Source: Megalonaias nervosa (taxonomy: Eukaryota; Mollusca; Bivalvia; Unionida; Unionidae). Taken from it: a DNA stretch of 64,000 bases. Both the position numbers and the translations under genes were made by a program. The stretch covers positions 62,001 through 126,000 of the forward strand of contig JAECUM010003217.1 of assembly GCA_016617855.1 (NCBI GenBank), in the 5' to 3' direction. Position 1 is the first letter of the stretch, and every line of letters starts with the position of its first letter. Shown here one piece after another: positions 1 through 23,749 of this stretch. Below the pieces are notes generated by a model that was not told where the DNA came from, made no database searches, and saw only the letters and a program-made list of their open reading frames with translations.

Positions 1-2
1 CG

Positions 3-922
3 TATGGAAAAGATGCCAAGAACACACATCTGGATGCTTGCATAGTATGGAAACCTGACACAGCAGGCGAGGACAAGTTTAACGACACAGGTCTGACAGC
101 AGCAGATGATCCTCACAGTGTGGGTTTTAACGACCGTCTAAAGAAAATCCTGCAAGGACGTAATTTAGAACTGATGGATAGTTTGCATTTGGACTTGTGA
201 TCGCAAGAAAAGTATTTGCTGAACGAGCTGGATATCAGCCTGAGACTGACTCGTACCAGTACCGTTTTCCATTTGATGACCAACGCCAACGAGTACAAAA
301 CCATCATCCAAGAAACCAGACTCTACGTGCGACGCCTGGAAGTGTTACCTAAAGTGGGAAACGACATTAGCTACACTTTGAAGAGAACCACCGCCAAGTA
401 TCTGATAATGACGCGTGGAAGTGATAAATTTCACCACTGCCGCTGGACTCCGATCCAAGATCGAAGATCATCTGTTCCAAGGGCAGTTATCCAAACGTTT
501 AATCATTGGTATCGTCAGCAACGAAACCCTCAACGTAGCCGTCACTGCCAATCTTTTCGAGTTTAAGCACTACAGAGTGTCCAAGATCGAATTCAGTCGC
601 GATGGCAAAACCTTGTGTACCAGACCCTTCGAACCTAAGTTTACCGAGAAGAATTACTTGAGATCGTACTTGTCCCTGTACGAAGCCACGGGACAGTTAG
701 GGACCAATACCGACCACGGCAAATTCGGACGACGATTATGCAGGACGCTACGCTTTGTGGGCTTTTGATTTCACTACATACCAAGGCAGCGACGAGGGAC
801 ATTTCCACTCTATAAAATCTGGTCAACTGCGTGTGGAACTTCAGTTTGCAGAAGCTCTAACCGAGGCGGTGAACATCATCTTGTTTTCCGAATTCGACAA
901 CACTCTAGAAGTCAACATTTGA
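3..922 (+). pseudogene. Polinton/adintovirus-like major capsid protein, C-terminal part (element A)
   Basis: The reading frame resembles the C-terminal half of the double-jelly-roll major capsid protein of Polinton/Maverick and adintovirus elements; metazoan copies are often annotated F54H12.2-like. Features seen are NELDISL, a LYVRRLEV strand, FQGQLSKRLIIG, an FEFKHY segment and a terminal SEFDNTLEVNI strand before TGA at 920-922. The 5' half lies outside the window. The copy is broken: in-frame TGA at 198-200, a frame change near 410-430 and another near 735-770. Downstream are small ORFs and a C5 protease, as expected for a Polinton structural block. It is unrelated in detail to the capsid gene of element B at 9889-11448. 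The capsid assignment is confident at family level; the lineage is uncertain. Confidence 0.82.
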
Positions 923-950
923 GAGAAGTCATTCTAGACTATCAGAAGTT

Positions 951-1088
951 ATGGAAGACTCTTATCCCTATTTGAATGGTGGAGCCTGTTTGGAAATGGA
1001 ATGGGAGGATATCTTGGAAACAGAACCAAATGACAAAGACGAAGAGATGATGGTAATGTCAGGATGGCCAGAACAAGAACAACATTAG
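951..1088 (+). CDS. small acidic ORF downstream of the capsid gene
   Basis: This is an intact 45-codon ORF beginning 28 nt after the capsid stop. The product is rich in Glu and Asp with an aromatic N-terminus (MEDSYPYLNGG). Its end overlaps the start of the next ORF (ATG at 1064) in another frame, the compact layout common in small dsDNA virus-like elements. I do not recognise a family. It could be a short late protein or simply the open part of a decayed gene. Confidence 0.4.
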   Translation: MEDSYPYLNGGACLEMEWEDILETEPNDKDEEMMVMSGWPEQEQH

Positions 1089-1387
1089 TCTCCTGCTTTG
1101 CCAAACACCTGGCAGAAACAATTACTGGCTTGACCAAGAAAGACTGCTATGGATGTCAAAACGATCATCCCAGTCAAATTTAACACGATAAATGTCTGAG
1201 TCAAGAAGAAGAATTGGACGAGTATCTGGATGACGCTTGGGGTCTCATCTCGGAAGAAGCAGTGTTGCATCAGTGGTATAAAGACTTGCGTGATCATTCC
1301 TTCTCTCCATTGACTGCTCTAGAGATCCAACTCATCGAATCTCTCTTGACCCAGAGTACGGAGAGGAAGCGAAGAGACCTTACTTGA
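1064..1387 (+). pseudogene. small Cys/His-motif protein between capsid and protease genes
   Basis: A frame of about 107 codons runs from ATG 1064 to TGA 1385-1387 with a single in-frame stop (TAA 1181-1183). Around the stop is a possible zinc-binding pattern: CYGC, then a histidine three residues on in HPSQ, then H and C a few residues later. The C-terminal part is acidic then basic (ends ERKRRDLT). It overlaps the preceding ORF and precedes the protease, so it belongs to the structural block of element A. One nonsense codon over about 320 nt is milder decay than in the capsid. Function is unknown; DNA or RNA binding would be a guess. Confidence 0.5.
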
Positions 1388-1464
1388 CAAAGATTTTCAA
1401 GCGAAAAGTCAGGATTGAATTGATGACTTATCATTACCTGTGAAACAAGAAAAAACAAAACAAA

Positions 1465-2012
1465 ATGGATACCTGGGAACTTCCTTTTGAAAAACAGTTC
1501 GTTCACCGCTTCTTGGAATCCTGTCGTGTGCGCTAACGATGATCTTCCTGATCGCAAACCTAAAGACCATCAAGCTTATATCATCAACACGGAAGACACT
1601 CATCTCCCAGGAACCCACTGGGCAGCCGTCTACTTTCTCCACGATGCTTGTGTGGAGTATTTTGATTCGTATGGAATGCGACATCATCGACTTTATGAGA
1701 AGAAATGCCCAGACGACACGATTCAATAATGTGAAATTACAAGGCACAGATTCCATGGTATGTGGACAATATTGTGTGTATTTTCTTCATCAACGCAGTC
1801 TTGGATATCCCTTAGAACATTTAGTGACTTATTTTTGATCGTGACTCTTCTAAAAATGATTGTAAAGTAGATAGATGGTTTTGTGACCATTATGGATATC
1901 TCTTGTCTTTAGGCAGGAAACGTAGTGTACATCAATGGCCAAATGACCTCCATCATTGGAAGTCTAACTTGACTTCACAACGTTCTCAACCTTGTCAAAA
2001 TATTTTTGTTTG
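1465..2012 (+). pseudogene. adenain-type (C5/Ulp1-like) cysteine protease, broken (element A)
   Basis: The family matures capsid proteins in adenoviruses, Polintons and adintoviruses. The catalytic motifs are visible in order but in different frames: GTHWAAVYF (His), YFDSYG (Asp), then SMVCGQYCVYF, where the last Cys of CGQYC is the expected nucleophile. The frame starts at ATG 1465 (MDTWELPFEKQFV), shifts near 1525, shifts again near 1725, and carries an in-frame TGA just after LVTYF at 1838-1841 before a Ser/His-rich tail ending at TGA near 2010-2012. Total length of about 180 codons fits the family. The active-site residues survive although the frame does not. Position behind the capsid gene supports the call. 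Confidence 0.85.
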
Positions 2013-2190
2013 AAGAAAAAATGTGTTGATGTTATATTATTTGTTGGTTGTTTGTTGGTTGAATAAAAATGTTACCAATAATTATTGTCTGTGGTTTGTT
2101 TTAAAAAAATTTTATCACTATATATGCTCTATGACTTCTCTCTATTCTTGTACATTAGATGAATCAAACACCGTATGGATGTTTTCTATA

Positions 2191-2217
2191 GCGTCCGCGC
2201 TTGAGACATATAAACCG
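2191..2217 (+). promoter_or_regulatory. core promoter of cassette 1: CGTCCGCGCTT box plus TATA box
   Basis: CGTCCGCGCTT at 2192-2202 is followed five bases later by ATATAAA at 2208-2214, about 50 nt before the ATG at 2264. The same box with the same spacing occurs at 4096-4118, and a weaker copy (GTCCGTGC) at 2891-2898. The TATA spacing suits a transcription start about 20-25 nt before the ATG. The promoter role is inferred. Confidence 0.6.
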
Positions 2218-2263
2218 AACCAGTCTCCAGTCTGACGATCCATTGTTGACTCAACTCGTGAAG

Positions 2264-2461
2264 ATGTCTTCCAAACTAGCTAAACTAAATGAACCCCACA
2301 TCTATTTACACCGTGTCAGGCAAAACCTGATGCCAAAGCTCGAAGAGATAGAAAATGTCAGGATGTTGAAAGTTGCACAAGACCTGATAGAAGAGGTCTT
2401 CAGAGAAGAAATGAAAAAGGAGCAAGAAGAGTGGACCGAGAAGTACAGACATCAGAAGTAG
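2264..2461 (+). CDS. cassette 1 small coiled-coil protein (element A)
   Basis: This is a 65-residue intact ORF. An upstream TTG-initiated extension to 2201 overlaps the promoter, so ATG 2264 is preferred. It begins MSSKLAKLNE and is mostly charged helix, ending in a Lys/Glu-rich segment likely to form a coiled coil. No family is recognised. The neighbouring cassette begins MSRIAKLLEL and also runs into Glu/Lys-rich helix, suggesting divergent paralogs. About 190 nt after its stop lies a histone-type stem-loop, with Gln-rich potential coding in the intervening sequence, so the ORF may originally have been longer. No conventional AATAAA lies between stop and stem-loop. Confidence 0.5.
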   Translation: MSSKLAKLNEPHIYLHRVRQNLMPKLEEIENVRMLKVAQDLIEEVFREEMKKEQEEWTEKYRHQK

Positions 2462-2650
2462 CAACAGCAGCAGCAGCTGCAACAACAACGGCAGAAGCCA
2501 GAAAGAGGCCTTGTCGACTGTAGAGTGGACACCAAGGAGTTCTTATTCTCCTTCCGAAGAAGCAGACAGTATCCCGTGGGAAAGCCTGCAGCCAGACGGG
2601 GGACAAAATCTCAGACGTTAAGGGAAATTGCCCAAAGTCTTGAACAAAAC

Positions 2651-2687
2651 AGCCCTTTTCAGGGCTATCCCAAAAATCTAGAAAAGA
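2651..2687 (+). terminator. histone-mRNA-type 3' processing signal 1 (stem-loop plus purine element)
   Basis: AGCCCTTTTCAGGGCT (2651-2666) forms a 6-bp stem with a TTTC loop, matching the metazoan replication-dependent histone stem-loop bound by SLBP. It is preceded by an A-rich flank (GAACAAAAC). Thirteen bases after the stem, TAGAAAAGA (2679-2687) resembles the histone downstream element that pairs with U7 snRNA. Signals 2 and 3 in the window repeat the arrangement. Confidence 0.75.
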
Positions 2688-2741
2688 CATACTTCTCAAT
2701 TGCCAAAATTTGTCTGCATTTATGTGCTGGTCTGTAGTTGT

Positions 2742-2890
2742 GATTGTAAGTCAAAAGATAGAAGTGTGCCTATAAACACTTTGTTTCCCTAACATATAAG
2801 AGTAGTGTGTGTTTTTGTTTATGGGTTGTATGTATGTGTGGTAATAAAGTGTGTTTGTAGGCAAAAGGTGAGCGTGAGTGTTTCTTTTAG
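2742..2890. other. spacer between cassettes 1 and 2
   Basis: GT-rich spacer without an ORF. It holds CTATAAACACT, a word seen twice more in element A at 3716-3726 and 3881-3891, then TATAAGAG at about 2796 and an AATAAAGTG at about 2843 that could serve as a fallback poly(A) signal. Confidence 0.35.
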
Positions 2891-2910
2891 GTCCGTGCGA
2901 TCCATAATTT
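2891..2910 (+). promoter_or_regulatory. weak cassette 2 promoter-like box
   Basis: GTCCGTGC at 2891-2898 matches the core of the CGTCCGYGCTT box seen at 2192 and 4096. The following CATAATTT is a poor TATA element, and the ATG at 2987 is about 90 nt downstream, farther than in cassette 1. Recognised only by comparison. Confidence 0.3.
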
Positions 2911-2986
2911 GGTTGTGGTGTGGGTATTGTTAATTTTTGTGTAAGGGGGTGTTTTTACCCATCTTTGACGTATCAACTTCAACAAA

Positions 2987-3520
2987 ATGAGTAGGATTGC
3001 CAAACTGTTAGAACTCTAGATGCACCTGGAATATGCTCGGCGCCTCCTAGACGAGCTAGCCATGGTGGCTATTGCAGAGGAAGCCAGGATCGAAGAGGAG
3101 GAGGAAGAAAAGAAGAAAGAAGAGGAGAAGCAAAAGAAAAAAAGGATCCTGTTTCACCTCATCCTGAGACAGGCTTGTGAGGTCACACCTACAGTGAGGA
3201 CACTGCCACTACCACCACCACCACCACCAAAACGTCAAGCACAACAACCATCTAGATCCGCTGTCCCCAGATAGAATACTGGGAGCAGGAGTTGGAGAGA
3301 CAGCGACAAGAGTGGGATCCTCAGCGCCAGCGACAACATCCGCAGGCACACCGTAGAGTCGTGAGGGAAAGAGCCTTCAGGATCCCTCAAAGTGAGAATT
3401 GGGATGATGAGGCAACTCATCAACCATCTGCACTCCCAACGACAACAGTCAATTGGAAACAGTATTGGAGTCGGCACTGCGTGAATGGGACCAGACCTGG
3501 GAGATGTCATCATTAAAGAG
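2987..3520 (+). pseudogene. cassette 2 coiled-coil/Pro-Gln-rich protein (element A)
   Basis: The frame opens at ATG 2987 as MSRIAKLLEL and meets TAG at 3017-3019, then continues open to 3274: a helical segment, a dense Glu/Lys tract (EEEEEEKKKEEEKQKKK), then a proline run (LPLPPPPPPK) and a stop. A second frame from about 3280 to 3516 is rich in Gln/Arg (ELERQRQEW, then PQRQRQHPQ) and looks like the continuation after a frameshift. The N-terminus resembles cassette 1. A histone-type signal follows at 3545-3580. No known domain is recognised; low-complexity charged sequence limits any homology claim. The product may be a virion core or scaffold protein, but that is a guess. Confidence 0.45.
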
Positions 3521-3544
3521 TTGCATCTGGAGTTTTAAAAAACC

Positions 3545-3580
3545 AGCTCTTCTCAGCGCTAACAAGATCTCTAGAAAAGA
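3545..3580 (+). terminator. histone-mRNA-type 3' processing signal 2 (degenerate stem)
   Basis: AGCTCTTCTCAGCGCT (3545-3560) keeps the stem-loop layout with one mismatched pair and a TCTC loop. Twelve bases further is TAGAAAAGA (3572-3580), identical to the element at signal 1. The conserved spacing and identical downstream word argue that it is a decayed copy of the same signal. Confidence 0.6.
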
Positions 3581-3645
3581 GAAACGGATCAAGTTGCCAC
3601 AAATATTGTTTGCTGGTAGTGTGTGTCTGTGTGAATGTATTTGTC

Positions 3646-3892
3646 TTTCCCTTAATAAAAAACCCATGTCCCTACGCTAAAGAATGTTTGTTTTGTGTGA
3701 AAGTGGAGTAGTGTGACTATAAACACTAACTCCTTTGCTGCTGTGATAGTGTATGTGTGTGTGCATGCGCGTACGTGTGTGTGTGCGTGTGCGCACGTGT
3801 GTGTGTGTGGTTTCCCTTAACAAAACCCTTGTCCCTAAACTAAAGAATGTTTGTTTTGTGTGACAGTGGAGTAGTGTGACTATAAACACTCA
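3646..3892 (+). repeat. two direct repeats of about 82 bp carrying CTATAAACACT
   Basis: Copies at 3646-3726 and 3811-3891 share TTTCCCTTAA, GTCCCTA, CTAAAGAATG, TTTGTTTTGTGTGA and GAGTAGTGTGACTATAAACACT in the same order. They are separated by a GT/GC-alternating stretch (about 3749-3810) with purine-pyrimidine alternation that could adopt Z-DNA. Each copy has a TATAAA-like word near its end, so they could be duplicated promoters; no ORF follows. Confidence 0.7.
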
Positions 3893-4094
3893 TTTGCTGT
3901 GTGATTATAGGTAATGGTGTGTTTTTGTAAATAAAAACTTTCTTTCTCCACTATCTGTTGGTATGGAGTATTTTGGATTTTGTTGGTATTAATGTATTGG
4001 TTTGAATAAAAATTTATTTTAGGTTAGCATTCCACTCACTTATCAATTTTTAATATGTGGTATGTGTAGTTGGTGAGAGGGGTTTTTTTCCTTC

Positions 4095-4122
4095 ACGTCC
4101 GTGCTTAATGTATATAAAGCGT
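4095..4122 (+). promoter_or_regulatory. core promoter of cassette 3: CGTCCGTGCTT box plus TATA box
   Basis: CGTCCGTGCTT (4096-4106) precedes ATATAAA (4112-4118) at the spacing seen at 2192-2214, and the flanking bases also match (AGCG after the TATA box here, ACCG there). The coding sequence expected about 50 nt downstream is replaced by a LINE relic from about 4150, so this promoter has been separated from its gene. Confidence 0.55.
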
Positions 4123-4149
4123 AGCGTTCGTCATTCGCGCCATAATCCA

Positions 4150-6190
4150 TACAGGACGCTCAGATATTGAAATTTTCAATATTTATGACCCTGGGAGTAA
4201 CATTCCTACCTCAGTAAAGACCTACGAACAACTGACAAATAACCTTACAGACTACATCATATGTGGAGACTTTAACGCCCATAGCGATAGAAAGTTGGAG
4301 TAACCACGGGGATACAAAAGGAAAACTAATAGAAGAATGGGTCTTTAGCTCATACCTAGTCATTTTAAACGACGGAGCTTGTACAAGAATTAACCCGGAA
4401 AACGGCTCCTTAGCGGCTATAGACCTCACTACCTCTACGCACAAACTGGCTGAATTAGCCGACTGGGAAGTGGACCAAACCAGCACGTTAGAAAGTAATC
4501 ATTTTCCAATAATAATCACCCTGAACCTAACCGTCCCTATCACAAACTCGGCTAGGATTCCCAAATGGAAATTAGATAAGGCAGGCTGGTTAGCATTCAG
4601 GTTTACACTTGAAGACATAAATTTAGAACAACTTCAAGATGTGGACATTAATAAATACACCCAAAATATAATAGATGCACTCTCAGCAGCGGCTGCCTTA
4701 AGCATCTCCAAAACGGGAGGAGGCGATAACCACATATCGAAACAAACCTGTACTATGGTGGAACCAGGAGTGTAAACAAGCCCTTAAGGAAAAGAAAAAG
4801 GCCCTGAATAAGTTCAAACACACCGGCCTTTCCTCGGATTTTATCATCTACAAAAGCAAGGAACAAGCAGCCAAACTTACTATCCGCACCGCAAAGACTA
4901 ACACCTAGTAAGATTATTGCTCGTCTTTGGACTATAGAACCAATGCAAAACATGTATGGACCAGAATAAAGGCAATGAAAGGAAAAGCTACTCAACCTAT
5001 GCCTTATGTAACCGGAGCAATCTCCAATAGAATAAAGCCAACCTACTAGCAGAGCATTTTGCAGGGATGAGCGGTAATAAAAACCAATCTACCAGGTTCC
5101 AAAGCCATCGGAAACTTGTGGAAGAGAAATACCCCGAACTGTTCACCGATTTGGGAATTGATTCCAGTCCACTAAACATGGATTTTTACCATTTGTGAAT
5201 GGAGAACTGCCTTGAGAAAGGAAAGAAACAACCTCACCAGGAGAAGACAATCTAGGGTACGAGTTTTACAAGAACCTACCCGGAAACATGGAGACCATAA
5301 TGCTGGACCTAATCAACACTTCCTGGAAAACCGGAAAAATCCCTAACAAGTGGAAGCAAGCAATAGTTATCCCAATTACAAAAGCGGGAAAAGATCCTAC
5401 AGAATTAAGTTCCTATAGGCCAATCTCCCTCACAAACAATATATGCAAAGTGACGGAAACTATGATTAACAACAGGCTTAAACACCACCTAGAATAAATA
5501 AGCAATTCTCCAAAATTTAAAGCGGCTTCCGCAACAAAAGGTCCACTCTAGATCAATTATTCTGACTGAAATCGAGCATTAAACTAGCATTTAACGCTAG
5601 AAGAAACTCTCGACTTAGCAATGGCAGTAGGGACAGGTTAAAATTACTAAATATTATGCAATGCACATAGTAATAATCCATATTTACTACCTATATAACA
5701 AATCTAATAATAATACAATTAAGTGATAGGTAAACTATCCAGTTATTCATTATCATAGAGATTCGATACTTTTCAATACTAACAACTTCTGTCTTCTTTC
5801 ATCTATTTCTCATCTTTCAACACTAAGTGAAGTGGAGTAATATATACTATATATTCATTACATTAATATGGTCCATAAATATTAGAAATTATAAGGTGGC
5901 TCCATACCAGCCGTCAGGACTAGCCGCAATAATTGATAAATGAAAAGTCTAAATAATTAATGTAAGAACCCCAACATTAGAATTTTAAGGTGGTCAAAAA
6001 TCCAATGGCCATTAGGCCCCGCCGCACAATGCGGCACACAAATTATTCATAGAAATTAAGGTCCCAAATTAAATGTACAAGGTGACTAACATCCAAGTCA
6101 TCAGGTCCCTCGCACAAGGAGAAAAATAATTTACATAATTTTATAGAACCCCAAACTATCAAACGTTATAAATAAAAACCCAATCAAAAT
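4150..6190 (+). mobile_element. degenerate Jockey/I-type LINE relic
   Basis: A non-LTR retrotransposon lacking its 5' end. The endonuclease domain shows IICGDFNAHSDRKLE near 4250-4300, then LNDGACTRINPENGSL and a SNHFPIIITL motif near 4495-4530. After several frame breaks the reverse-transcriptase N-terminus appears at about 5288-5497 (PNKWKQAIVIPITKAGKDP, then SYRPISLTN) and a GFRNKRSTLDQL-like segment near 5520-5560. The YADD palm motif and 3' half of RT are absent. The AT-rich tail to about 6190 contains three loose repeats starting AAGGTG (about 5893, 5989, 6079) and may be 3' UTR. It interrupts cassette 3 of element A. Confidence 0.75.
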
Positions 6191-6350
6191 AAATTAGAAC
6201 TTAATGCCCACTTCAAAACAACAAAAACAAAAAACAATTCTTCCCTACCTTTTCACTACATTCAGCAGCACGGATACAATCTTTCAAAATTCTGCAAGAC
6301 GCTATTTATTTTTGGAAACTGGAATCTCAATTAGCTCTGGATGTTACAAA

Positions 6351-6607
6351 CGGGGCCCCGAGTGCCCGAGTAGTCTAAAGCGGTCACCGTTACGGATCAC
6401 TGCCATCTCACCTCTGTCTGCGTGGCTTCGAGTCTCGGATTCGGCCAATGTGGGTATGTGAGAAAGCTTGCCAGTAGCTTCTCGTGGGTCGGTGGTTCTT
6501 TCCGGGGTTTTCCCGGGTTCTTCCTCCATTTATAATGGCCGCCATGTATAGCCTATCTTGTGCTGAAAAATGGCGTTAAACCCTACAACAACAACAACAA
6601 CAACAAC
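6351..6607 (+). mobile_element. tRNA-derived SINE with (CAA)n tail, copy 1
   Basis: The head is tRNA-like (box A around CCGAGTAGTCTAAAGC, box B around GCTTCGAGTCTCG), followed by a conserved body (GTCGGTGGTTCTTTCCGGGG) and an (ACA)n tail. It is flanked by perfect 10-bp duplications ATGTTACAAA at 6341-6350 and 6608-6617. A second copy lies at 39999-40256. Body and head are nearly co-linear between copies. Confidence 0.9.
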
Positions 6608-6617
6608 ATGTTACAAA

Positions 6618-6961
6618 TGGCTCCCCTCTTAACTATATCCCTACCATCCTACCCTCGTCCGGACATTCAATCATACTGTGCCATGCACGCATTAAACCTA
6701 CTACCCTGATGAGCGTGTCAGCATGGTACCGGGGTGACTCTATAAGTGGAGTATAATTCTTCAATAAGCGAAGCAATGGAGGCAGACTTTCTAACGATGA
6801 GCATGGATGCATTTAATCCAGCTCGTCTTTGTCCCGTGGGACTTTAATGTCCCGAAATCGGACACAAGTAGCACACTGTGTACATTACTGCGTTGGGGGA
6901 TGTAGTGAAGAAGATAAGGAACTTGTGGAAAAGAAGAAGAAGAAGAAGAAGAAACCCCAAA
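6618..6961 (+). pseudogene. remnant of cassette 3 with Lys-rich end (element A)
   Basis: Sequence between the SINE and the third histone-type signal. A CTATAAG word lies at about 6740. ATG 6777 starts a 23-residue ORF (MEADFLTMSMDAFNP...) ending at TAA; an overlapping frame from about 6829 ends in EEDKELVEKKKKKKKKPQ right before the stem-loop. A basic tail close to the 3' signal is consistent with a core or DNA-binding protein, but no family is recognised and the 5' portion has been separated by the LINE and SINE insertions. Confidence 0.35.
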
Positions 6962-6997
6962 GGCCCTTTTCAGGGCCACTCAACTGTTTAGAAAAGA
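6962..6997 (+). terminator. histone-mRNA-type 3' processing signal 3 (perfect)
   Basis: GGCCCTTTTCAGGGCC (6962-6977) is a perfect 6-bp stem with TTTC loop, preceded by CCCCAAA and followed by ACTCAA, the canonical flanks of metazoan histone stem-loops. TAGAAAAGA at 6989-6997 lies 12 nt after the stem, in histone-downstream-element position. This is the best of the three copies. Confidence 0.85.
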
Positions 6998-7079
6998 TGC
7001 CTATTCTCTCTTGCATACAATTTTTTTTTGGTCAATTTTTTTGTGTAATAAATTTATGTCGATAAATCTATGTATGTCT

Positions 7080-7455
7080 ATGTCTCTAACCCTGTCACTA
7101 ACCATGTCTCTATTTGTCCCTAGAGCAGCGCCTATTCAGTTCAGCCCCTTGCAAAACTATTCCGCCCGAGTGAGGTCAGCCCCTTGCACCATTGTTACCA
7201 TTGTTTCCCAGGTGTCCAGTACCGTGACGTCACCCCTGTTCAATTCTTATTGTCCCTAGACAGGCCCAATACATTGTTGCTATACATTCCCTATGTTAAA
7301 TTCCCATTGACCCTATACAGACCCACCCATGTTAAAATGCCTTTTGTCCCTATAGTGCCTGGACCCTGTCTGTAATGCTAATTCCCCTTGTCTCTATAAA
7401 TCTTGTCGCTATAGGGCCGCGGCACTTTTTAACATGGAAGTCCCATAGTCCCTAT
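7080..7455 (+). repeat. pyrimidine-rich region with recurring TGTCCCTA words
   Basis: No gene is seen. TGTCCCTA or close variants recur irregularly near 7117, 7251, 7310, 7345, 7390 and 7447, and GTCCCTA also occurs twice in the repeats at 3646-3840. GCCCCTTGCA occurs twice near 7143 and 7179. The shared words tie this spacer to element A rather than element B. Composition changes sharply to AT-rich at about 7480. Confidence 0.4.
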
Positions 7456-7480
7456 TTCGCTACATTCTCTAACTTCACAT

Positions 7481-8636
7481 GAAATTAGGACTGCGTTGGG
7501 AAAATTATCAGAAAGATTAGAGGATATTGAAAAAGAACAAAAAGATATTGGTGAGAGAACGATAAAGTTTTTAGAAATTTATGAACAAAAACGAGTTTTT
7601 AGGAAAAAAAAAACAAATGAAAAAATATCAGATGGTGAATATCGTGAATTTCTGACAGAAAATGATATAAATGATATTGATAATATAAAAACTTGGTCGA
7701 AAGAAAGATATGATAAACTTAATAATGATTTAAATAAAATGATATTTTCTGGTAACGAGTCTAATGCTAAATTAGATGAAGCTATAAAACACGAGGAAAT
7801 GATACCACTATCTGTTAAAATTAGGCGAGGTATTATTGCTAATGTCTTTTATCAAACAGCTGAGGCTAATAGAACTAAAGGGTTTGGTAAGAGTTGGACT
7901 TTTTTAAGGAAATTCAAAATAAATGATGAAAATCGAGTGAAAGAATATAGAAAAGAAGAAGCTGGGATACCAAAAGGCATAACATTTTTAGAAGAGATTG
8001 AACAGCCACTAGTTATATCCCCAGGAAAAATAAAAACTTCCGAGGAAACTGAAAGAATGAAGCAAATTGAAGAAATAAAAGTAATGGTAAAAGAGAAAAT
8101 AGAAGATTCAGATTATGATACTTTTATGAAAGAAAATATTATTAAAGATGTTGATAATATTGATAAATTAAAACAAAATGAATATGATACTTTAATTGTT
8201 ATATTGGATAAAAAAAATTAAAGATGGTAAACAAGCTTTAGATGAAACTGATAAAGCTGAAGAAAAAGATTTCACAAAATTTTACAAAAGCTCCCGAGAT
8301 GGTGTTATTGCCGGTGTTTTTAAAAATACTGCAGTAAAATTTAGAACTGGAAAATTTAGAACTGAAGGACGAAGTTTTAAAAATGTATTTGATGGTTATG
8401 ATAAACATCGTTTAGATAAAGCTAAAGAAAAAACTGGAACTGGGGTAAAAATATTTGCATTAGTAACCGAAATGATAAGCAGATTAATGCTGCTGATATC
8501 ATCAAAGGAAGCTGGGAATGTTGGCGCTGAAATTGACAATGAAGTTATTGATATACTTAATCATTTAAGATCGGAAAATTTATTAACATCTGATGAATAC
8601 AAAACTTTACACACCGATTTAATCGCGACGACCTAA
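7481..8636 (+). pseudogene. unknown protein with two tandem domain copies (element B)
   Basis: About 385 codons with one frame break in an A-rich tract near 8210. There is no ATG at the start; the frame is open upstream of TTG 7496 and composition changes there, so the 5' end seems truncated. The product is Lys/Glu-rich and helical. Internally, a unit containing RRGIIANVFYQTAE, then WTFLRKF, recurs as RDGVIAGVFKNTAV, then RSFKNVF; a unit containing DGEYREFLTENDINDIDNI recurs as DSDYDTFMKENIIKDVDNI and, weakly, near the C-terminus. The repeat period is about 140 residues. I recognise no family; position ahead of the capsid genes suggests a late or virion-associated role. Confidence 0.5.
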
Positions 8637-8676
8637 ACTTGTAAATGTCAATTTTATAAAAATATAATAAATAGCA

Positions 8677-9443
8677 ATGTCAACAACATTATTACTAGAC
8701 TCTAGTACGGCCGCGATAGCTTACGCGAAAGATAGCGCAAATTTTTCAGTAATTATATTCCGCCAATACAACTTGATACTGAAAAACAGTATGAAATTGG
8801 ACTAATTTCATGCACATGTTGGCATTCCATGGCTAACGTAAAAACTGGAGTAAACGATGAATTTGATTTTACTTTAGCTCCAGCTCCAAGACCTATATGG
8901 AAATCAGTTAAAATTCCGCAAGGAGCCTACAACGTAACTGATTTAAATAAGACGATACGCGAATTAATAACGAAAAATGGAGGAGTTTCAGACAATTTTG
9001 AACTGGTACCGAATTATAACACATTACGCGCTAGAATAACATTAAAAAATAATTTGATAATAGATTTTTCATCATCAATAAGCATAGCGTAGCTGATTGG
9101 ATTTACTCACAAGCAATATGGATCTGTAGCAGAACAAACTATAACATATGACAGTGAACTGCCGGTAAATATAACTGACGTAAATACAATATTGATAAAT
9201 TGCTCCATTGCAACTGGATCTTACTCAGCCCAGGGTAGTAAAGGACAAACGATATATAGTTTTTCGCCAGAAGTTCCACCAGGCTCGCTCATGCAAATTA
9301 ATCCGCGGAAAGTTATTTATTATCCGCTAAATGTTGAAAATCAAATAACAGCAATAAATATGCAGTTGACAGATCAATCTGGACGACAGCTGGATCTGAA
9401 TAACGAGGTTGTTACTTACTATTTACACCTACGCGTTGCGTAG
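8677..9443 (+). pseudogene. penton-like minor capsid protein (element B)
   Basis: The frame starts at ATG 8677 (MSTTLLLDSSTA), breaks near 8730-8830, then is open apart from TAG at 9090-9092, ending with LHLRVA and TAG. Recognisable are KIPQGAYNVTDLNKTI near the middle, GFTHKQYG, then NCSIATGSY, an IYSFSPEVPPG loop and LTDQSGRQLDL, a pattern I associate with the minor capsid (penton-like) protein of Polinton/adintovirus relatives. Length of about 255 codons fits a single jelly-roll protein. It lies upstream of the major capsid gene. Family assignment rests on pattern recognition. Confidence 0.6.
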
Positions 9444-9484
9444 GTGCGCACAATCGACTTCGGTTTTATACAACCTCAGATATA

Positions 9485-9874
9485 ATGAAACAAAAAAAAA
9501 AATTTACCGAAGAAAAATAGTTGGTGGATTTTTGGGAAATATATTTACTAAAATTATTGAAAATGCTCCGGGAATCGCGCGTAAAGTTGCACCAATTACA
9601 CTTGACGCATTAAAAGCTTTTGCAACTGGAACCGCATCTGCCGCTGGAACTGCGGTGGGACAAAAAAATAGCTGATAAAATAAAAGGCGATCCACAACGT
9701 GGAATACCGTCTACATCTGAGATAAAACAAGTTATATCAGAAATCGCTCCAGCAAAAGAAACTCAACATGCTATGATAACAACAACAAAAAAAAAACTTT
9801 TATCACCAAAGGGCGAGCAGATTATACAAAAATTAATATCTAAAGTAACAGCGCCGCAATACAATTTTATATAA
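9485..9874 (+). pseudogene. small basic, Gly/Ala-rich capsid-associated protein (element B)
   Basis: ATG 9485 leads into an A11 tract where the frame breaks; the downstream frame reads YRRKIVGGFLGNIFTKII and an Ala/Thr-rich helix to 9675, then a further shift gives ADKIKGDPQRGIPS to TAA at 9872-9874. About 125 residues in all. The N-terminus is basic, then an amphipathic or hydrophobic GGFLG segment, reminiscent of the membrane-active pVI-type proteins of adeno-like viruses. The call is by composition and position between the penton-like and major capsid genes. Confidence 0.45.
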
Positions 9875-9888
9875 TCTAATAAATAAAA

Positions 9889-11448
9889 ATATCTGTTAAA
9901 AATTATCTCGATTTAACAGAAACTTATGACATCGATGACACTGTAACAGAATTTGAGTATGTTGAGTATCTCGATGAAAATTCTAATGAACCAAATAAAG
10001 CTGGTGTTAGAACATTTAATACTCGAGACGAAGATGCATTTCTACTGCCATATAAAGCAATATTGGAAGTTCGCGGTCAGATTATGACAGTGGCCAATCC
10101 ACCTGTTGCAATTGCAGCTAACACAGAAGTAGCTCTTATAAATGATGGTTGGTGTTTATTTAAAAGTGCTCGATATCAACTAACCAATCAAACAGTAGAA
10201 GATATTTCGAGCCACCTACAAGTTGCAAGTACAATCTTAAATATTATTTCGTTTTCCGACGATTACTCCAGATCGACTGCAACTAATATGATGTGGTTTA
10301 AAGATACCGGAAGTGGTGGGTCTGGTTTTATGGCATCATCTAAATTTTCAGCTGGGGGTCAACCTATTCTAGTGGCTGGAGCTAATGCCGCTGCAGATGT
10401 TGTAACTGTAGGAGATTTTCTTATTATTAATGCTGCTGCGTTAGGTATAGTCGAACCAGGTGCAGTCGCCGGTGATGCAGCTACAAGAGTCACGCTTACT
10501 GCTGCTTGTAATAATCTTGGTATGACACCACCAGGTGGTGCTGCAACCGGCACTGAAATGTTGAATTTGATTAATAACTCATTTCCTATCGTCAGAAAAA
10601 ATATACGTTATAATGAAGGTTATACCAGAAGAAAGTCACTTGCAGCAGGATCACGTCAAATTACAATGATGCTGCCATTAAGTACAATATTTGGATTTTG
10701 TCGCGATTACAAGAAAGTATTTCGTGGAGTTAAACATACACTTATTTTAGATCAAGCAGAACAAAACGACTGCCTGTTTAGGTCAGGCGGAGCTGATGTA
10801 CAGTTTATCATAAATAAACTTGCGCTGTGGATGCCACGAATAACACCATCAATCACTAAAATGTCAGAATTAAATGATATGCTGCAAAAACATACAAACA
10901 GAATTTATTTTCAGCAACATAAAATACATCAAACAGCAGTTCCAAATACTACTGACTACACATGGCGAGTTACAACAACATCAAGTGAACAACTGCCGAG
11001 GCAATTATTTGTTGTATTTCAACAGCAAGCGCGACGTGGTAACCAACAACAAAATAATGCGATATTTGATAACGCTGATGTTAGACGAATATATGCTAGA
11101 CTAAATTCAAAGCAATATCCAGAGCGAGCGATAGAATGTAATTTTGCAGATGACGCTAATAAAAATATTACTCGACCTTACATGTATCTGCTCGACGCAG
11201 TGCAAAAATATCAGGATGTTGGAGACGAATCTCAGATATCAGTAGAGAAATTTCGTACACTTTATCCAATATTTTATTTTGATGTTAGTAAACATTGCGA
11301 GCGAGCTGTCGATTCAACAGCTGATATTGATATTACTTGTACACTCGGAGCAGTTCCAGCAGCGCAGTTGTACGTGTACGCGTTGGTGATCAGCGACAGA
11401 TTTATTACGATTGATTCTGTTGGAGGTAAAATGACAGTACAAGTTTAA
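9889..11448 (+). CDS. major capsid protein, double jelly-roll type (element B)
   Basis: An open frame of about 520 codons follows TAA 9880-9882. The position where ATG is expected reads ATA (9889-9891), so the native start may be lost; the next in-frame ATG is 10084. Features are a VEYLDENSNEP N-terminal region, SFSDDYSRSTATNMMWFKD, the RRKSLAAGSRQITMMLPLS segment, GFCRDYKKVFRGVKHTLIL and a late FDVSKHCER segment. Size and place between a penton-like gene and small capsid genes fit a Polinton/adintovirus major capsid protein, of a lineage distinct from element A. The whole gene lacks nonsense codons and frameshifts, unlike the polymerase and integrase of the same element. Confidence 0.75.
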   Translation: MSVKNYLDLTETYDIDDTVTEFEYVEYLDENSNEPNKAGVRTFNTRDEDAFLLPYKAILEVRGQIMTVANPPVAIAANTEVALINDGWCLFKSARYQLTNQTVEDISSHLQVASTILNIISFSDDYSRSTATNMMWFKDTGSGGSGFMASSKFSAGGQPILVAGANAAADVVTVGDFLIINAAALGIVEPGAVAGDAATRVTLTAACNNLGMTPPGGAATGTEMLNLINNSFPIVRKNIRYNEGYTRRKSLAAGSRQITMMLPLSTIFGFCRDYKKVFRGVKHTLILDQAEQNDCLFRSGGADVQFIINKLALWMPRITPSITKMSELNDMLQKHTNRIYFQQHKIHQTAVPNTTDYTWRVTTTSSEQLPRQLFVVFQQQARRGNQQQNNAIFDNADVRRIYARLNSKQYPERAIECNFADDANKNITRPYMYLLDAVQKYQDVGDESQISVEKFRTLYPIFYFDVSKHCERAVDSTADIDITCTLGAVPAAQLYVYALVISDRFITIDSVGGKMTVQV

Positions 11449-11499
11449 AAATTATAAATAATTTTGCAAGTTTAATCTATAAATTTAATATAATTAAGG

Positions 11500-11889
11500 A
11501 TGACAAAATATATTGCAAAAGAAATATACTTAACTGAAGGTCAAGTTAAAAAATTAGCAGCTGCTGTTGCAAAGCAGAAACAGGTATCATTAAAAATCAA
11601 CCCTGACATTTCCAAGGGTATTTTAACAAAATTAATGTTAACCAAAAAACAGGTGAACAGGTACGATCGCAAAAAACCTTTTGTTTTAAATTTAAGTGCC
11701 GCACAAATAACAGCGATGGCAAAACAAGGTGGTTTCTTTGGTCCGGCATTATCAGTAATAGCCATAACGTTAATGCCTAAAATTTTGCTGGTGTTAGGTA
11801 CATTAGGACTAGCAGCAGTGTCTGGAGCAATATCTGGCGTAACGAAAAAAGCAGTTGAGGGAAGTGGTATAAAGAAACTTTCAGTTTAA
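11500..11889 (+). CDS. small basic capsid-type protein with hydrophobic segment (element B)
   Basis: An intact 129-residue ORF starting MTKYIAKEIYLTEGQ, 51 nt after the capsid stop. The N-terminal two thirds is Lys-rich with helices; residues about 83-105 form a hydrophobic GPALSVIAITLMPKILLVLG-type segment, followed by an Ala/Gly-rich TLGLAAVSGAIS region and a short basic end. A basic domain plus a Gly/Ala hydrophobic patch is typical of small capsid-cementing or membrane-active proteins downstream of the capsid gene in adintovirus-like genomes. No specific family is assigned. Confidence 0.6.
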   Translation: MTKYIAKEIYLTEGQVKKLAAAVAKQKQVSLKINPDISKGILTKLMLTKKQVNRYDRKKPFVLNLSAAQITAMAKQGGFFGPALSVIAITLMPKILLVLGTLGLAAVSGAISGVTKKAVEGSGIKKLSV

Positions 11890-11911
11890 TTTTATGTGAC
11901 TGATAAATATA

Positions 11912-12496
11912 ATGCCACAACGAAAAACAGCAAAAAGAAAGACTACGAAAAAAGACACCGCGACGTCGAAGAACAACCAAAGGCGGATTTATAGGACCGT
12001 TGATAGCGGGACTAGCGGGAAGTCTAGTGCCAGGTCAATTTGGAATAGGACGAGGACTAACATTGCCGGGAACACGCCCCCCCCCCCCGCTAAGTAACTT
12101 TGATATACTTGATAAGCTAAAAGAAGTAAAAAATTTCCACGGAGTTTATTCCAAAGATGAACTTGCTAATATCACAGATGTTGGTTCCTGCGTGATAAAT
12201 ATACAAAATTTCAACGACGGATCTGGTACACACTAGGTAGCAGTTTATAATAACAATTATTTTGACTCGTTTGGACTTCCTCCGAGCGACGCAATAAAAA
12301 AATACATGTCGAAGTATGAAATAATAAATTATTCGTCTAATCAAATTCAGCCTGTGGAACTTCTGCTTGTGGATATTATTGTATAATGTTCGTGAAACAA
12401 ATGTCCCAGCCTAAATTTAATTTTTTAAAATTTATTTTACAATTTGACAAACATCCTTCTCACGCTAATGATGAGATTGCACAAAATTTTATCTAA
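11912..12496 (+). pseudogene. basic N-terminal region joined to adenain-type C5 protease (element B)
   Basis: ATG 11912 opens a Lys/Arg-rich stretch (MPQRKTAKRKTTKK). After a frame shift near 11955 comes RRRRTTKGGFIGPLIAG and a Gly/Pro-rich part, then without a break the protease start (PLSNFDILDKLKEVKNFHGVY). The catalytic His lies in GSGTH at 12224-12234, but the next codon, Trp in the family, is TAG (12235-12237). NYFDSFG follows, and after another shift the nucleophile motif SACGYYCIMF near 12366-12395. A run of 12 C (12077-12088) lies in the linker. So either two genes are fused by mutation or the protease carries a basic mu/pX-like N-terminus. Stop at 12494-12496. Confidence 0.7.
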
Positions 12497-12510
12497 ATTG
12501 CAAATATATA

Positions 12511-12723
12511 ATGTCAACATATTGTCTCAAATGTAAAACTAAAACAGAAAATATCAATGAAACAACAGAAAAAACAAAGAACAACAGGACGATGCTGAAA
12601 AGTATTTGTGCAATCTGCGGAAAAAGAAAAAGTATGTTTTTAAAGAAATTATCCCCAGCGATAAAGTCGTTGGGAGCTGGTTGCCCTGACAATGTCAGGG
12701 ACGTTATTTTAGTAGACGACTAA
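12511..12723 (+). CDS. small zinc-ribbon protein (element B)
   Basis: An intact 70-residue ORF. It begins MSTYCLKCKTKTENINET and has a second pair, CAICGKRKSMF, so two CxxC knuckles spaced about 25 residues apart, the pattern of a zinc ribbon. Similar short CLKCK...C..CG proteins occur in adintovirus-like elements and some large DNA viruses. It ends eight bases before the phospholipase ORF, suggesting co-transcription. The role is not established; a nucleic-acid or virion structural function is possible. Confidence 0.65.
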   Translation: MSTYCLKCKTKTENINETTEKTKNNRTMLKSICAICGKRKSMFLKKLSPAIKSLGAGCPDNVRDVILVDD

Positions 12724-12731
12724 TTAATAGA

Positions 12732-13229
12732 ATGAGATGCAAGTGTGATTGTGATAGAGATTTATGTCTTGAGCAAAATAAAATTGTCACATACTGTCAA
12801 CAATGTAACAACAGAGAAATAATAGGAACAGGTATAGATATACATAAAGTAATTGGCAAATTGCCGAAACCAAAAGGCGGTTGGACATTGCCAGGCCATA
12901 AATATACTGGACCTTATAATCCTCTTGATAAACAACTAGATGAAAATGATAATCCGCTGCCAGGACAAGAACCTTACAATCAAGTTGATGCAATAGCAAT
13001 GCGCCATGATATCTGCTACCGGGACAACGAGCAAGATAAGGCTGGTTGTGATAAAGTAATGCTAGACGAAGTTCGTGATATGAAACCGATAAATATGCGA
13101 GAACGTTTTGATAGAAGGCTGGTGCAGTGTTTTATTGGAGCAAAATATAAACTTGGACTCGGAAAGGAATTGTATGATGATCTGGCAGCTGAATTACATA
13201 AACCTAAAAAAAAAGTTTACGCGACTTAA
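12732..13229 (+). CDS. secreted-type phospholipase A2 domain protein (element B)
   Basis: An intact 165-residue ORF. An N-terminal Cys-rich stretch (CKCDCDRDLC, CQQCNN) precedes the PLA2 core: PGHKYTGPYNPLDKQL provides the YxGPxN calcium loop, and DAIAMRHDICYRDN supplies the catalytic His-Asp pair. This is the arrangement found in parvovirus VP1 and in some adintoviruses, where it is thought to breach endosomal membranes. The C-terminus (ELHKPKKKVYAT) lies in an A9 tract directly ahead of the integrase frame, which has no start of its own. Catalytic residues appear intact. Confidence 0.85.
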   Translation: MRCKCDCDRDLCLEQNKIVTYCQQCNNREIIGTGIDIHKVIGKLPKPKGGWTLPGHKYTGPYNPLDKQLDENDNPLPGQEPYNQVDAIAMRHDICYRDNEQDKAGCDKVMLDEVRDMKPINMRERFDRRLVQCFIGAKYKLGLGKELYDDLAAELHKPKKKVYAT

Positions 13230-14071
13230 AGTTGTTGCAAATGCCGTTGACGATATCTGGGCGATAGATTTAGTTGATGTGTCAAATCTAACCGAATTTA
13301 ACGATAACAAGAAATACTTGTTTAATGTCATAGATATTTTTAGCAAATATGCTTTTAGTGTTCCAGTTTCAGATAAGACAGGAACGTCAATAACTGACGT
13401 ACTAAAACAGGTTATCGTTAGTACAGAAAGAAAACCAAATAGAATCTGGACCGATCACGGAGCAGAATTTTTTAATAAAATATTTGAGCGGTTTTTGCTC
13501 CAAAATAATATCAAAAAATATGTTACAGGAAAAGAAGGTAAAAGCGTTGTCGTCGTGCGATTTAATCGCACGCTAAACGAAAAAAATTCATAAATATTTG
13601 ACAGTTAATAATACAAATAAGTATATTGACAATTTACAGATCATTGTTGACGAATACAATAACACGAAACACCGAACCACTAAAATGTCGCCAAATGACG
13701 CAATTAAAAATCCGATATTGGCAAACAAAAACATGTACCGCTGACATAAATTTAAAGTTGGTGATAAAGTTAGAATTTCTCTGACGAAAAAAACATTTGA
13801 AAAAGGATTTACTCCAAACGGGAGCGAAGAAGTATTTGTTGTTGATAAAGTACTTTTAACAATACCTGTAACATACGCGCTGAAAGATTTATTAGGTGAG
13901 CCTATAACTGGTAGTTTTTACTAGCAGGAACTTCAGAAAACTTCCCAAGATATATTTGTTATTGAAAAAGTTATTAGAAAGCGCGGCGACAAAAGTTTAG
14001 TTAAATGGAGAGGATATAGCGATAAATTTAATAGCTGGGTACCAACTAAGTCGATGCAAAATTATTTATAA
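13205..14071 (+). pseudogene. Polinton-type DDE integrase with C-terminal chromodomain (element B)
   Basis: Retrovirus-like integrase core: DDIWAIDLVDVS (first Asp), then VIDIFSKYAFSVPV, and RIWTDHGAEFFN (second Asp). The expected catalytic Glu directly before RFNRTL is Val (GTG at 13555-13557), so the triad is broken. A frame shift follows near 13585, with in-frame TGA at 13741-13743 and TAG at 13921-13923. The C-terminus is a chromodomain (FVIEKVIRKRGDKSLVKWRG, then SDKFNSWVP) ending at TAA 14071. There is no start codon near the beginning; the frame is entered from the PLA2 gene across an A9 tract. The family inserts Polinton DNA into host chromosomes. Confidence 0.88.
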
Positions 14072-14607
14072 TGTTATTATAAATTTGTTCGTACTTTACA
14101 AGTACAGATTTACATTTGATAGTTTTACATAACGAAATTAAATGTAATTTTCTTGTATTATCAACTGGCATTAAATTACATATTTTAACAAAAATAAAAT
14201 CATATTTTATATTTCTTTGACAGCCAGTTGTTTTTACACCAAGAAAAGGTTTGATAAGCTGCCAAAATATTTGTTGTTCAGCAACAGTAAAATTAAATTT
14301 TATTATTTTTTTACCAATGTGATACTTAACATTATATCGTCCAGTTGTCGGTCAGCTGTAATTTTTTCTGTCAGCGACAGCAACTACTTCATCATCATCG
14401 TCATTGTTGTCGTACAAAATATCATCTTCGCTATAAGCAGCAAATTTTTCTGAGATTATGTTAACATTGTTGTTGGCGACTTTTTGTGTTGTTGGCGACT
14501 TTGTCGTTAGTGATTTTATCACTTGTGATTCTGTCGTTGGCGATTTTGTCGCTAGAGATCAAATTATCATCAGCATATATATCAGCAAGTCGTTTCATCA
14601 AGTTCAT
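14046..14607 (-). pseudogene. minus-strand acidic protein of unknown family (element B)
   Basis: Read on the minus strand from ATG 14607: MNLMKRLADIYADDNLI, then a short repeat of DKI/DRI/DKV units (SDKIANDRITSDKITNDKV), a frame shift near 14460, an acidic run (DNNDDDDEVV), TGA near 14350, and then a C-terminal domain with KKIIKFNFTVAEQQIFWQL, KPFLGVKTTGCQRN and CKTIKCKSVLVKYEQ, ending at TAG 14046-14048 inside the integrase 3' end. About 185 codons. Codon-like composition continues across the breaks, which argues for a real decayed gene. It is divergent from the ORF at 14642 with a 34-bp gap. No family is recognised. Confidence 0.45.
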
Positions 14608-14641
14608 ATTATAATATACTTTTATCTAATTTATGATAATA

Positions 14642-14906
14642 ATGGCCAGCGAAACGAAATCTCCAGAAGTAAAATATCATCATAAAGTTAATATACTAAA
14701 TTACAAAGAATTAGCTGAGGCAGTTTGTTTGAAAATGTTTGTTTGGTTATAGTACTTATTCTGTTGACGTTATTGTAATGCAAGGCCAAAATGATAGGAT
14801 ATTACTAACAGCAACAGACAAAAATAAACTTAATGATGGTGCATTTATAACATTAAAATTTGACCGTGATGATATTTTGATGTTTGCCCACAGTTGCTTA
14901 ACTTAA
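14642..14906 (+). pseudogene. small protein of unknown family (element B)
   Basis: ATG 14642 opens MASETKSPEVKYHHKV followed by LNYKELAEAVCLKMF; a frame shift near 14745 leads to VDVIVMQGQNDRILLTA and a D-rich end (FDRDDILMF) before TAA 14904-14906. About 87 codons. It converges on the HNH gene and starts 34 bp from the divergent minus-strand gene. Not recognised; the mixed alpha/beta pattern looks like a small folded domain. Confidence 0.4.
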
Positions 14907-14922
14907 ACCGAGCTAAGAAATA

Positions 14923-15743
14923 TCATTGATCGTCATATCTGAAACTAAATCTGTCAAAAGTGGATGTTGACGTTGTTGATTTATGTACGCCATCTGCAAC
15001 ATCTTTTATTCTAGCTGTATTAATTTTATGATATTTCCCAGCAGCTTTCATTGATCTAAATTTTATTTCTTCATTAGTTTCAAGATTTACTGAAATAACT
15101 TGTTTAACCTTACTAAAATCATTATTTCCAGTATTTTCTCTTCTACTATTTTCTCTTGGTGTAACTAGATCTAAATTTTCTAGACGATTGTCAGATTTAA
15201 TGCTGTTAATATGATCGATAACTAAATTATTTGAAATAGCGCCATTAAATGTTTCATAAACAAACCTATGTGATTTATAAGAAACAAAATCTGTTTTAGT
15301 TCCTCTAACAGTTACATTTAAATAGCCAGTAATTTGCATAAAACCAACAACTTTTTTTGGTTTTTATGTCTTATAATACCCCGATCATTAGCTTCATAAA
15401 GATCAAATACTGGATGCGGTTGAAATTCGTTTTGTAATGCTAAATTTTCAAAATTGTCATCGTTTATTGAGTTATTTACTCTATAAACTCGTTGTCCAGC
15501 TGGGATATCATCGCAGAACAAAGTATAAACAAAATCTTTTCTAAACATTTCAGTCATATCTGTATTATCACCTTTTACTGAAATTATCATTCCAGCTGGT
15601 GTTGGTCTACCAATATATTTTTTAGATTTTATGTTAATAACCGAACCTAATACATTTGCAGCATATAAGTTGTACCTTGGGTGAACATCATATGCTTCTT
15701 GCTCTTCCGCTTTCAGTTTCATATATATCGAAATTTTTGTCAT
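14923..15743 (-). pseudogene. HNH endonuclease with tandem NUMOD/HNH-like modules (element B)
   Basis: On the minus strand, ATG 15743 starts MTKISIYMKLKAEEQEA. A first module (YNLYAANVLGSVINIKSKKY, then NNSINDDNFENLAL) resembles a degenerate HNH unit lacking clear catalytic His. After FDLYEANDRGIIRHKN the frame breaks in a T7 tract near 15345, and a second module follows: SHRFVYETFNGAI, VIDHINSIKSDNRLENLDLV (the HNH core with DH and two Asn) and a NUMOD1-like tail (KVKQVISVNLETNEEIKF). Stop near 14923. Total about 270 codons. Such free-standing HNH genes typify phages and giant viruses. It lies between a small ORF and the divergent polymerase gene. Confidence 0.72.
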
Positions 15744-15838
15744 TATACTATAAGGATTTTATATCTCTAATTAAAAAATAAGTAAAAATTAATTAAATAT
15801 AAAAATTAATTAAATATAATAATGCTATATATAATATA

Positions 15839-18800: not shown

Positions 18801-19343
18801 AAGTGGCTAATGTATTATTTTCACTATAATTTTACTAAAAAGCAGTGGCAAGATTCGGAGTTGCTATCTACTGATACAGATTCGCTAGTTTATAATATAA
18901 AATGTGAAGATGTCTATGAGGATATTTATAACAATAAAAATTTATTTGATTTATCAGATTATCCGACAAATATTGGATTTTATGATGATACTAACAAGAA
19001 AGTTATCAGTAAATTTAAGGACAAATTTATGTTTGTGCCGGTGAGAGAGTTTGTTGGACTTCGAAGTAAAATGTATGCCGTAATTCTCGACGATAATAAA
19101 CTGACAAAGAAAGCAAAAGGTATTCCTAGTGGTTATGTAAAGAAATGTATGAAATTTGATGATTTTAAAACCGCACTAAACAATAATGTCAGTTTTATTA
19201 AGACAAATGTAATCCGTACAAATCTTCACAAGCTCGAGACAGATACGATTATTAAACGTGGACTTAGCAATTTCGATGATAAAAGATATTGTAAAGACGG
19301 AATTAATACTTTAGCACTTGGGCATTACACCAGTGTCTGTTAG
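15839..19343 (+). pseudogene. protein-primed family B DNA polymerase (element B)
   Basis: The frame from ATG 15839 continues through several breaks to TAG after NTLALGHYTSVC. Domains in order: helical N-terminal region, CYKCLQGF...H partial zinc finger near 16735, exonuclease motif I IYADFECL near 16882, an endonuclease-VII-like DHCHLTG...YRGAAHNNCN element near 17250, FRSYDSHIIV (exo II), then the palm: YLNCMNLYGWAM at 18095-18130 (motif A, where Asp is expected but Asn is present), NNSVFGKTMEN (motif B) and STDTDSLVY (motif C, intact). In-frame stops include TGA near 16400, TAA 16848, TAG 17274, TAG 17891 and TGA 18756; frame shifts lie near 16277, in an A9 tract near 16345, near 17060 and in an A8 tract near 18025. 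Replicates Polinton/adintovirus genomes. Confidence 0.92.
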
Positions 19344-23660: not shown

Positions 23661-23665
23661 TCCCC

Positions 23666-23749
23666 CTAGACCAACAAGTAGGTCTCCGCTTTGTTTTTTT
23701 TTTTTGTTCTGACAGCGGAAAAAAAGCGGAGACCTACTTGTTGGTCTAG
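23666..23749. mobile_element. 84-bp foldback MITE
   Basis: Perfect inverted arms of 27 bp (23666-23692 and 23723-23749) starting CTAGACCAACAAGTAGGTCT surround a T-rich loop of 30 bp. Flanks carry TGTCCCCCT on both sides (about 23659 and 23750), suggesting an 8-9 bp target duplication. Each arm also contains its own small inverted repeat (GACC...GGTC). It codes for nothing. Confidence 0.8.

Follow-up and report, generated by a model that had tools for sequence, protein, structure and literature searches.

Histone-type 3' end signals behind small non-histone genes of a virus-like element in the bivalve Megalonaias nervosa

Two virus-like elements lie side by side in a 64,000-nucleotide (nt) stretch of the genome of the bivalve Megalonaias nervosa (contig JAECUM010003217.1 of GenBank assembly GCA_016617855.1, positions 62,001 to 126,000 of the forward strand), called the window here. 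The first, referred to as the stem-loop element, runs from before position 1, such that its left end falls outside the window, to about position 7400, and carries in order the remnants of a major capsid gene, acidic frames, a probable protease gene and a set of small genes. The second is a Polinton at 7433-19340. Behind the small genes of the first element stand three sites at which a stem-loop of the type found at the 3' ends of animal histone genes is combined with a purine word, TAGAAAAGA (Table 1).

The initial annotation had reported three such sites, two with a perfect stem-loop and one with a single mismatch. Their positions were confirmed letter by letter, as were the perfect stems of sites 1 and 3 and the mismatch of site 2, where a T faces a C and the loop is altered as well. 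The sequence class is that of a T-rich four-base loop with an A-rich 5' flank and a CA behind the stem. The Rfam Histone3 model (RF00032) matches site 3 with 37.6 bits (E = 2.2e-7), over the gathering score of 34, and site 1 with 27.9 bits (E = 9.1e-4), under that score, and has no further match in the 64-kb window. A strict loop scan of both strands of the 64 kb, with rules that were written after the sites had been seen, returned two loops, the perfect ones, both with TAGAAAAGA. In 200 dinucleotide shuffles of the plus strand of 1-7400, the mean number of loops with at least five pairs was 0.015, and a loop with the word appeared in none of the 200. The word itself occurs six times on the two strands of the window, three times at sites 1-3. 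A stem of at least five pairs lies 8-18 nt upstream of three of the six words (background 8.1%, binomial 0.009), and a full six-pair stem lies at that distance from two of them (background 0.8%, binomial 0.001). When folded as 32-nt pieces, sites 1, 2 and 3 reach -9.0, -2.4 and -11.4 kcal/mol, and 10, 45 and 2 of 200 shuffles, respectively, fold as well or better.

The exact loop GGCYCTTTTCAGRGCC is present in 101 stretches of IMG/VR, of which none has AC, or the purine word within 35 nt, behind the loop (two of them end early) and one has a looser purine run. At least 120 IMG/VR stretches hold CTTTTCAG and the word at a similar spacing; among the matches listed, a full stem is seen in 0 of 120 and five pairs in 6 of 120. 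The combination of loop and word in the window is not a product of chance. A single IMG/VR contig that fits the canonical histone loop pattern with its flanks was rejected as a chance match, given that its frames are phage-like by our reading and that Rfam does not match it.

All three sites are real, but they do not provide three independent events, an interpretation that was rejected on an alignment of sites 1 and 2 that spans 81 columns at 74%. It indicates that these two sites are one duplicated 3' end. Sites 1 and 3 have only the 36-nt motif in common (81% identity); their flanks do not align, and the outer stem pair differs on both sides, being A-T in site 1 and G-C in site 3. Retention of the motif after its flanks had diverged favours selection on it while the element was active, although this argument draws on two lineages at one locus. 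Behind site 2 there is also a 69-nt direct repeat (3659-3727 and 3822-3890, 94% identical) that contains TATAAACACT, and TATAAACACT is found behind site 1 as well.

The gene in front of site 1, gene 1, has a relative in P0026, a 120-amino-acid (aa) metagenomic protein, whose C-terminus suggests a stop codon of gene 1 at 2619-2621, 29 nt before the loop. The fold predicted for P0026 comprises two helices, one of them long, and a disordered basic tail, with a mean predicted local distance difference test (pLDDT) score of 74.9, and on this prediction a histone fold for gene 1 was rejected. Searches of the PDB, Pfam and PHROGs with P0026 gave nothing significant (best E 0.12, 0.066 and 0.027, respectively). 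The shared sequence indicates that gene 1 is a real and conserved gene for a non-histone protein; it is assigned to the virus rather than to the host only by its position. A homolog search with gene 2 found no relative, and the pieces of gene 2 align too weakly with gene 1 (29 and 33% identity) for the two to be called paralogs. The frames tested from the gene 3 region have no Pfam match, with no homolog search made for them. The earlier statement that the genes before the sites are not core histones holds, in that none of the frames tested matches a histone family and gene 1 has its own relative. The sequence CGTCCGYGCTT stands shortly before TATA-like boxes at 2192-2217 and 4096-4121 (a weak alignment, E 0.45) and is a candidate for a promoter motif in this element.

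The 3' ends of animal replication-dependent histone genes, which are the domain of SLBP, the U7 small nuclear ribonucleoprotein (snRNP) and RF00032, likewise combine a six-pair stem and a four-base loop with a purine word at the same distance, and likewise have a CA 4-6 nt behind the stem and a stop codon shortly before it. The distance from the stem to the AAAGA core is 16, 15 and 15 nt at sites 1-3, compared with 16 nt in mouse H2a, measured to the position of the core in a mouse tail that we composed from two variants printed in PMC7026596. The CA ends 6, 4 and 5 nt behind the stem at sites 1, 2 and 3, and passages of PMC7026596 place the cleavage of histone pre-mRNA 4-5 nt behind the stem. 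By position, the signals match the needs of SLBP and U7. The genes that carry them differ from animal histone genes, being non-histone and lying beside a viral capsid gene.

Table 1. Features of the stem-loop element and of the adjoining Polinton, with positions in the window.
Feature	Position	Strand	Basis
Major capsid gene remnants, F54H12.2-like double jelly-roll, broken over three frames	3-916	+	tblastn, cluster search, fold match
Broken acidic frames between capsid and protease, function unassigned	909-1384	+	open reading frames
Probable adenain-type cysteine protease, broken over several frames	1427-2013	+	weak matches, none significant alone
AATAAA behind the protease, without a stem-loop there	2062-2067	+	motif count, RF00032 search
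TATA-like box before gene 1	2208-2214	+	by eye
Gene 1: helical, basic-tailed non-histone protein	2264-2621	+	72% identity to P0026 over 2264-2602
Site 1: histone-type stem-loop AGCCCT-TTTC-AGGGCT (2651-2666), word TAGAAAAGA (2679-2687), 12 nt between	2651-2687	+	
AATAAA behind site 1	2843-2848	+	
Gene 2: charged, Pro/Gln-rich protein, broken frame	2987-3516	+	open reading frames
Site 2: decayed stem-loop AGCTCT-TCTC-AGCGCT (3545-3560), word TAGAAAAGA (3572-3580), 11 nt between	3545-3580	+	
AATAAA behind site 2	3654-3659	+	
Decayed non-LTR (long terminal repeat) retrotransposon inserted in the stem-loop element, limits approximate	4150-5494	+	Exo_endo_phos_2 E 1.9e-5, RVT_1 E 0.0015, both under curated cut-offs
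Gene 3 region: TATA-like box (6740), ATG (6776), short Lys-rich frame, coding limits uncertain	6740-6961	+	by eye
Site 3: histone-type stem-loop GGCCCT-TTTC-AGGGCC (6962-6977), word TAGAAAAGA (6989-6997), 11 nt between	6962-6997	+	
AATAAA behind site 3	7047-7052	+	
Polinton double-jelly-roll capsid, open 521-aa frame	9883-11445		PF21738 E 6.6e-23
Polinton phospholipase A2-like protein	12690-13226		E 2.9e-9
Polinton rve integrase	from 13093		E 3.5e-14
Polinton HNH endonuclease gene		-	E 1.4e-15
Polinton PolB pieces, broken	16407-19340		by eye

The capsid gene upstream of the small genes was traced by tblastn with P0001, P0002 and P0004, which align at 60-80% identity with pieces at 3-407, 412-720 and 725 or 731-916. 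An intact capsid frame of 118 aa has 25 homologous protein clusters (E no higher than 0.01), of which the best is 80% identical to it, and three of the 25 are named Uncharacterized protein F54H12.2-like, from Crassostrea virginica. A structural model was built from an alignment of 20 of the 25 clusters, and its mean pLDDT of 60.8 lets it speak for the fold class, not for details. Compared with the PDB, the model comes closest to the capsids of Sputnik, an iridovirus, PBCV-1 and mavirus (E 7e-13 and weaker); a viral library puts a Cotesia bracovirus protein first (36% identity) and LO7 of an adomavirus third. Sequence search of the PDB with the capsid gave no significant match, and none of four capsid family members compared with Pfam scored above a cut-off. 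By our reading, the modelled fold is that of a double-jelly-roll capsid from a lineage that has no Pfam model. No relative was confirmed in IMG/VR by searches with the capsid piece, the protease piece, the capsid alignment, P0026 or the Polinton capsid, or in prokaryote genomes by a search with the capsid alignment.

Both a capsid and a protease had been placed beside the small genes by the initial annotation. The clusters and the fold match support the capsid, but the protease is only probable, given that its matches are weak. Peptidase_C5 is matched at E 0.038, with a score of 14.1 bits that falls short of the cut-off, 21.3. For the first piece there is an alignment to the His/Asp region of SENP2 (E 0.67); for the second, there is one to the Cys region of adenain (E 1.3), ranked behind an out-of-place match to a poxvirus RNA polymerase at E 0.12. 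Two pieces of the acidic frames between capsid and protease were tested and have no significant match in Pfam.

On the best reading, set out below, the sequence from 1 to about 7400 is probably the right-hand portion of an endogenous element that resembles a DNA virus and has a double-jelly-roll capsid of the F54H12.2-like kind. Its GC content is 0.39-0.46 when the inserted retroelement is excluded, and that of the Polinton is about 0.27-0.39. The setting had been described earlier as that of a Polinton or adintovirus; a viral capsid does lie upstream of the sites, but there are two elements, and the loops belong to the F54H12.2-like one. That the stem-loops are part of the neighbouring Polinton was rejected, since RF00032 has no match in 7433-19340. 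The Polinton carries a capsid of its own, and both the integrase and the PolB pieces seen in the window are assigned to it. Two of its PolB pieces were tested with no Pfam match, and a protease and a packaging ATPase were not seen in it by eye. No inverted repeats of at least 40 nt were found in 1-30000, and the left end of the stem-loop element lies beyond the window. The stem-loop element is broken, so that present-day use of its signals is unlikely. A stretch that resembles a short interspersed element interrupts it at about 6350-6600 (by eye). Further along the window, a long near-perfect hairpin at 23661-23754 is matched by two microRNA families far under their gathering scores and is perhaps a short inverted-repeat transposon. 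On the minus strand, frames at 40738-43951 resemble an LTR retrotransposon (reverse transcriptase, integrase zinc finger and gag-like, by eye), and a frame at 55462-55872 resembles a THAP-domain protein, also by eye.

The best explanation of these features is that the small genes of the element with the F54H12.2-type capsid probably used SLBP and U7 processing when the element was active, to give histone-type mRNAs. Gene 1, its neighbour gene 2 with the duplicated 3' end, and probably gene 3 would have been expressed in this way. The SLBP of the host would bind the stem-loop about 29 nt past the stop codon, the U7 snRNP would be guided by the purine word 11-12 nt further downstream, and CPSF73 would cleave close to the CA whose end lies 4-6 nt downstream of the stem, such that the mRNA has no poly(A) tail. 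The capsid-protease block would instead use an ordinary poly(A) signal, and the element would therefore have had two classes of mRNA ends. A likely benefit would be expression that is tied to S phase, when the replication machinery of the host is at hand. More tentatively, there may be an animal DNA virus lineage with F54H12.2-type capsids that gives its capsid and protease mRNAs poly(A) ends and confines small non-histone genes to S phase by SLBP/U7-dependent, histone-type ends. The virus or transposon with histone-type mRNAs that had been suggested at the outset keeps its histone-type signals, its non-histone genes and its viral capsid, but its picture of a single element is corrected to two.

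Several results weigh against the use of histone-type processing by this element. Because sites 1 and 2 are duplicates, only two independent instances are available, and site 2 is decayed and unconvincing when taken alone, with no match to RF00032 at E up to 10. At each site the word is followed, 50-156 nt downstream, by an AATAAA, so that poly(A) ends are possible. In the window, the frame of gene 1 is broken by an early stop and by a change of frame near its end; gene 2 has broken frames, the last of which ends at 3514-3516 and puts the presumed stop 28 nt before the loop of site 2, and neither a coding frame nor a stop is clear in gene 3. Pairing with human U7 is at the level of background, with 719, 651 and 1193 of 2560 background pieces doing at least as well as sites 1, 2 and 3. 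Pairing with fly U7 lets only site 2 stand out, mildly (156 of 2560, best 6%), with 1710 and 1655 of 2560 for sites 1 and 3. As a control, the composed mouse H2a tail pairs well with human U7 (1 of 2560). Support is also limited to one broken locus.

The AATAAA motifs would also fit a different history, in which a captured host histone 3' end was spread among the genes of the element, the mRNAs were mostly polyadenylated at AATAAA and the stem-loops were passengers or minor regulators. Such a motif does stand behind each word (Table 1), and passages of PMC9756948 describe both modes of 3' end formation for some human histone genes and a poly(A) signal that overlaps the downstream element in histone pre-mRNAs. 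However, there are 13 AATAAA in 1-7450, so their presence says little, and loop and word were retained at sites 1 and 3 despite diverged flanks; this history is considered unlikely. Rather less likely is that the hairpins had another role, for example as terminators or as RNA-stability elements to which SLBP does not bind, and that the purine word is a separate promoter or end motif. SLBP binding is presumed here from likeness of sequence, U7 pairing is unsupported with human or fly U7, and some of the 101 IMG/VR stretches with GGCYCTTTTCAGRGCC resemble phage terminators by our reading. Yet the T-rich four-base loop, the A-rich 5' flank and the CA that follows the stem, like the distance from stem to word, fit the histone model.

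Another explanation, raised in the initial annotation and examined here, is that the cassettes are pieces of a histone cluster of the host and lie beside viral genes by chance. It could appeal to Rfam, which places the motif under histone genes, but it is disfavoured to the point of being very improbable, given that no frame tested matches a histone family and that the gene with its presumed stop 29 nt ahead of site 1, gene 1, encodes a non-histone protein that is conserved and has a predicted helix pair and disordered tail. Chance hairpins that happen to adjoin a common purine word would suit site 2, which alone is unremarkable in the folding test. For the sites together, the RF00032 matches, the strict scan and shuffles, the counts of words and stems and the IMG/VR controls make chance the least credible of these explanations.

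What is new, in our rating, is the presence of known histone-type 3' signals on unexpected genes. No report of histone-type 3' ends in Polintons, adintoviruses or transposons was found among the titles and abstract starts listed from the open PMC literature, a scope that mostly leaves aside subscription journals. If histone-type processing of the small genes is true, viral non-histone genes would widen the class of genes with histone-type signals, and the element would provide both a natural case of a virus that exploits SLBP and U7 and a simple route to S-phase-limited viral expression. The proposal is directly testable, given that public sequence collections include relatives of the F54H12.2 type (25 protein clusters at E up to 0.01).

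Elements with F54H12.2-like capsids, known here from protein entries alone, are close to the stem-loop element in their capsid: the 118-aa piece searched and its nearest cluster share about 80% identity. Adintoviruses and Polintons likewise have a double-jelly-roll capsid and, as is probable here, an adenain-type protease. Passages of a preprint (PMC11071296) define adintoviruses by a PolB with an OTU-like domain and an integrase with a chromodomain; in contrast, if the stem-loop element has this defining pair, it lies beyond the window, and the adjoining true Polinton has no stem-loop. The term stem-loop does not occur in the main text of PMC11071296. As passages of the same preprint describe, adomaviruses and tailtomaviruses have histone-like 'Histoid' proteins. 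These are likewise small, animal-associated DNA viruses, and they hold histone-like genes, whereas in the stem-loop element only the 3' signal is histone-like and no histone match is found. Since animal DNA viruses do hold histone-like genes, capture of a histone gene together with its 3' end is plausible, and the signal of the stem-loop element may descend from a histone gene of the host in this way.

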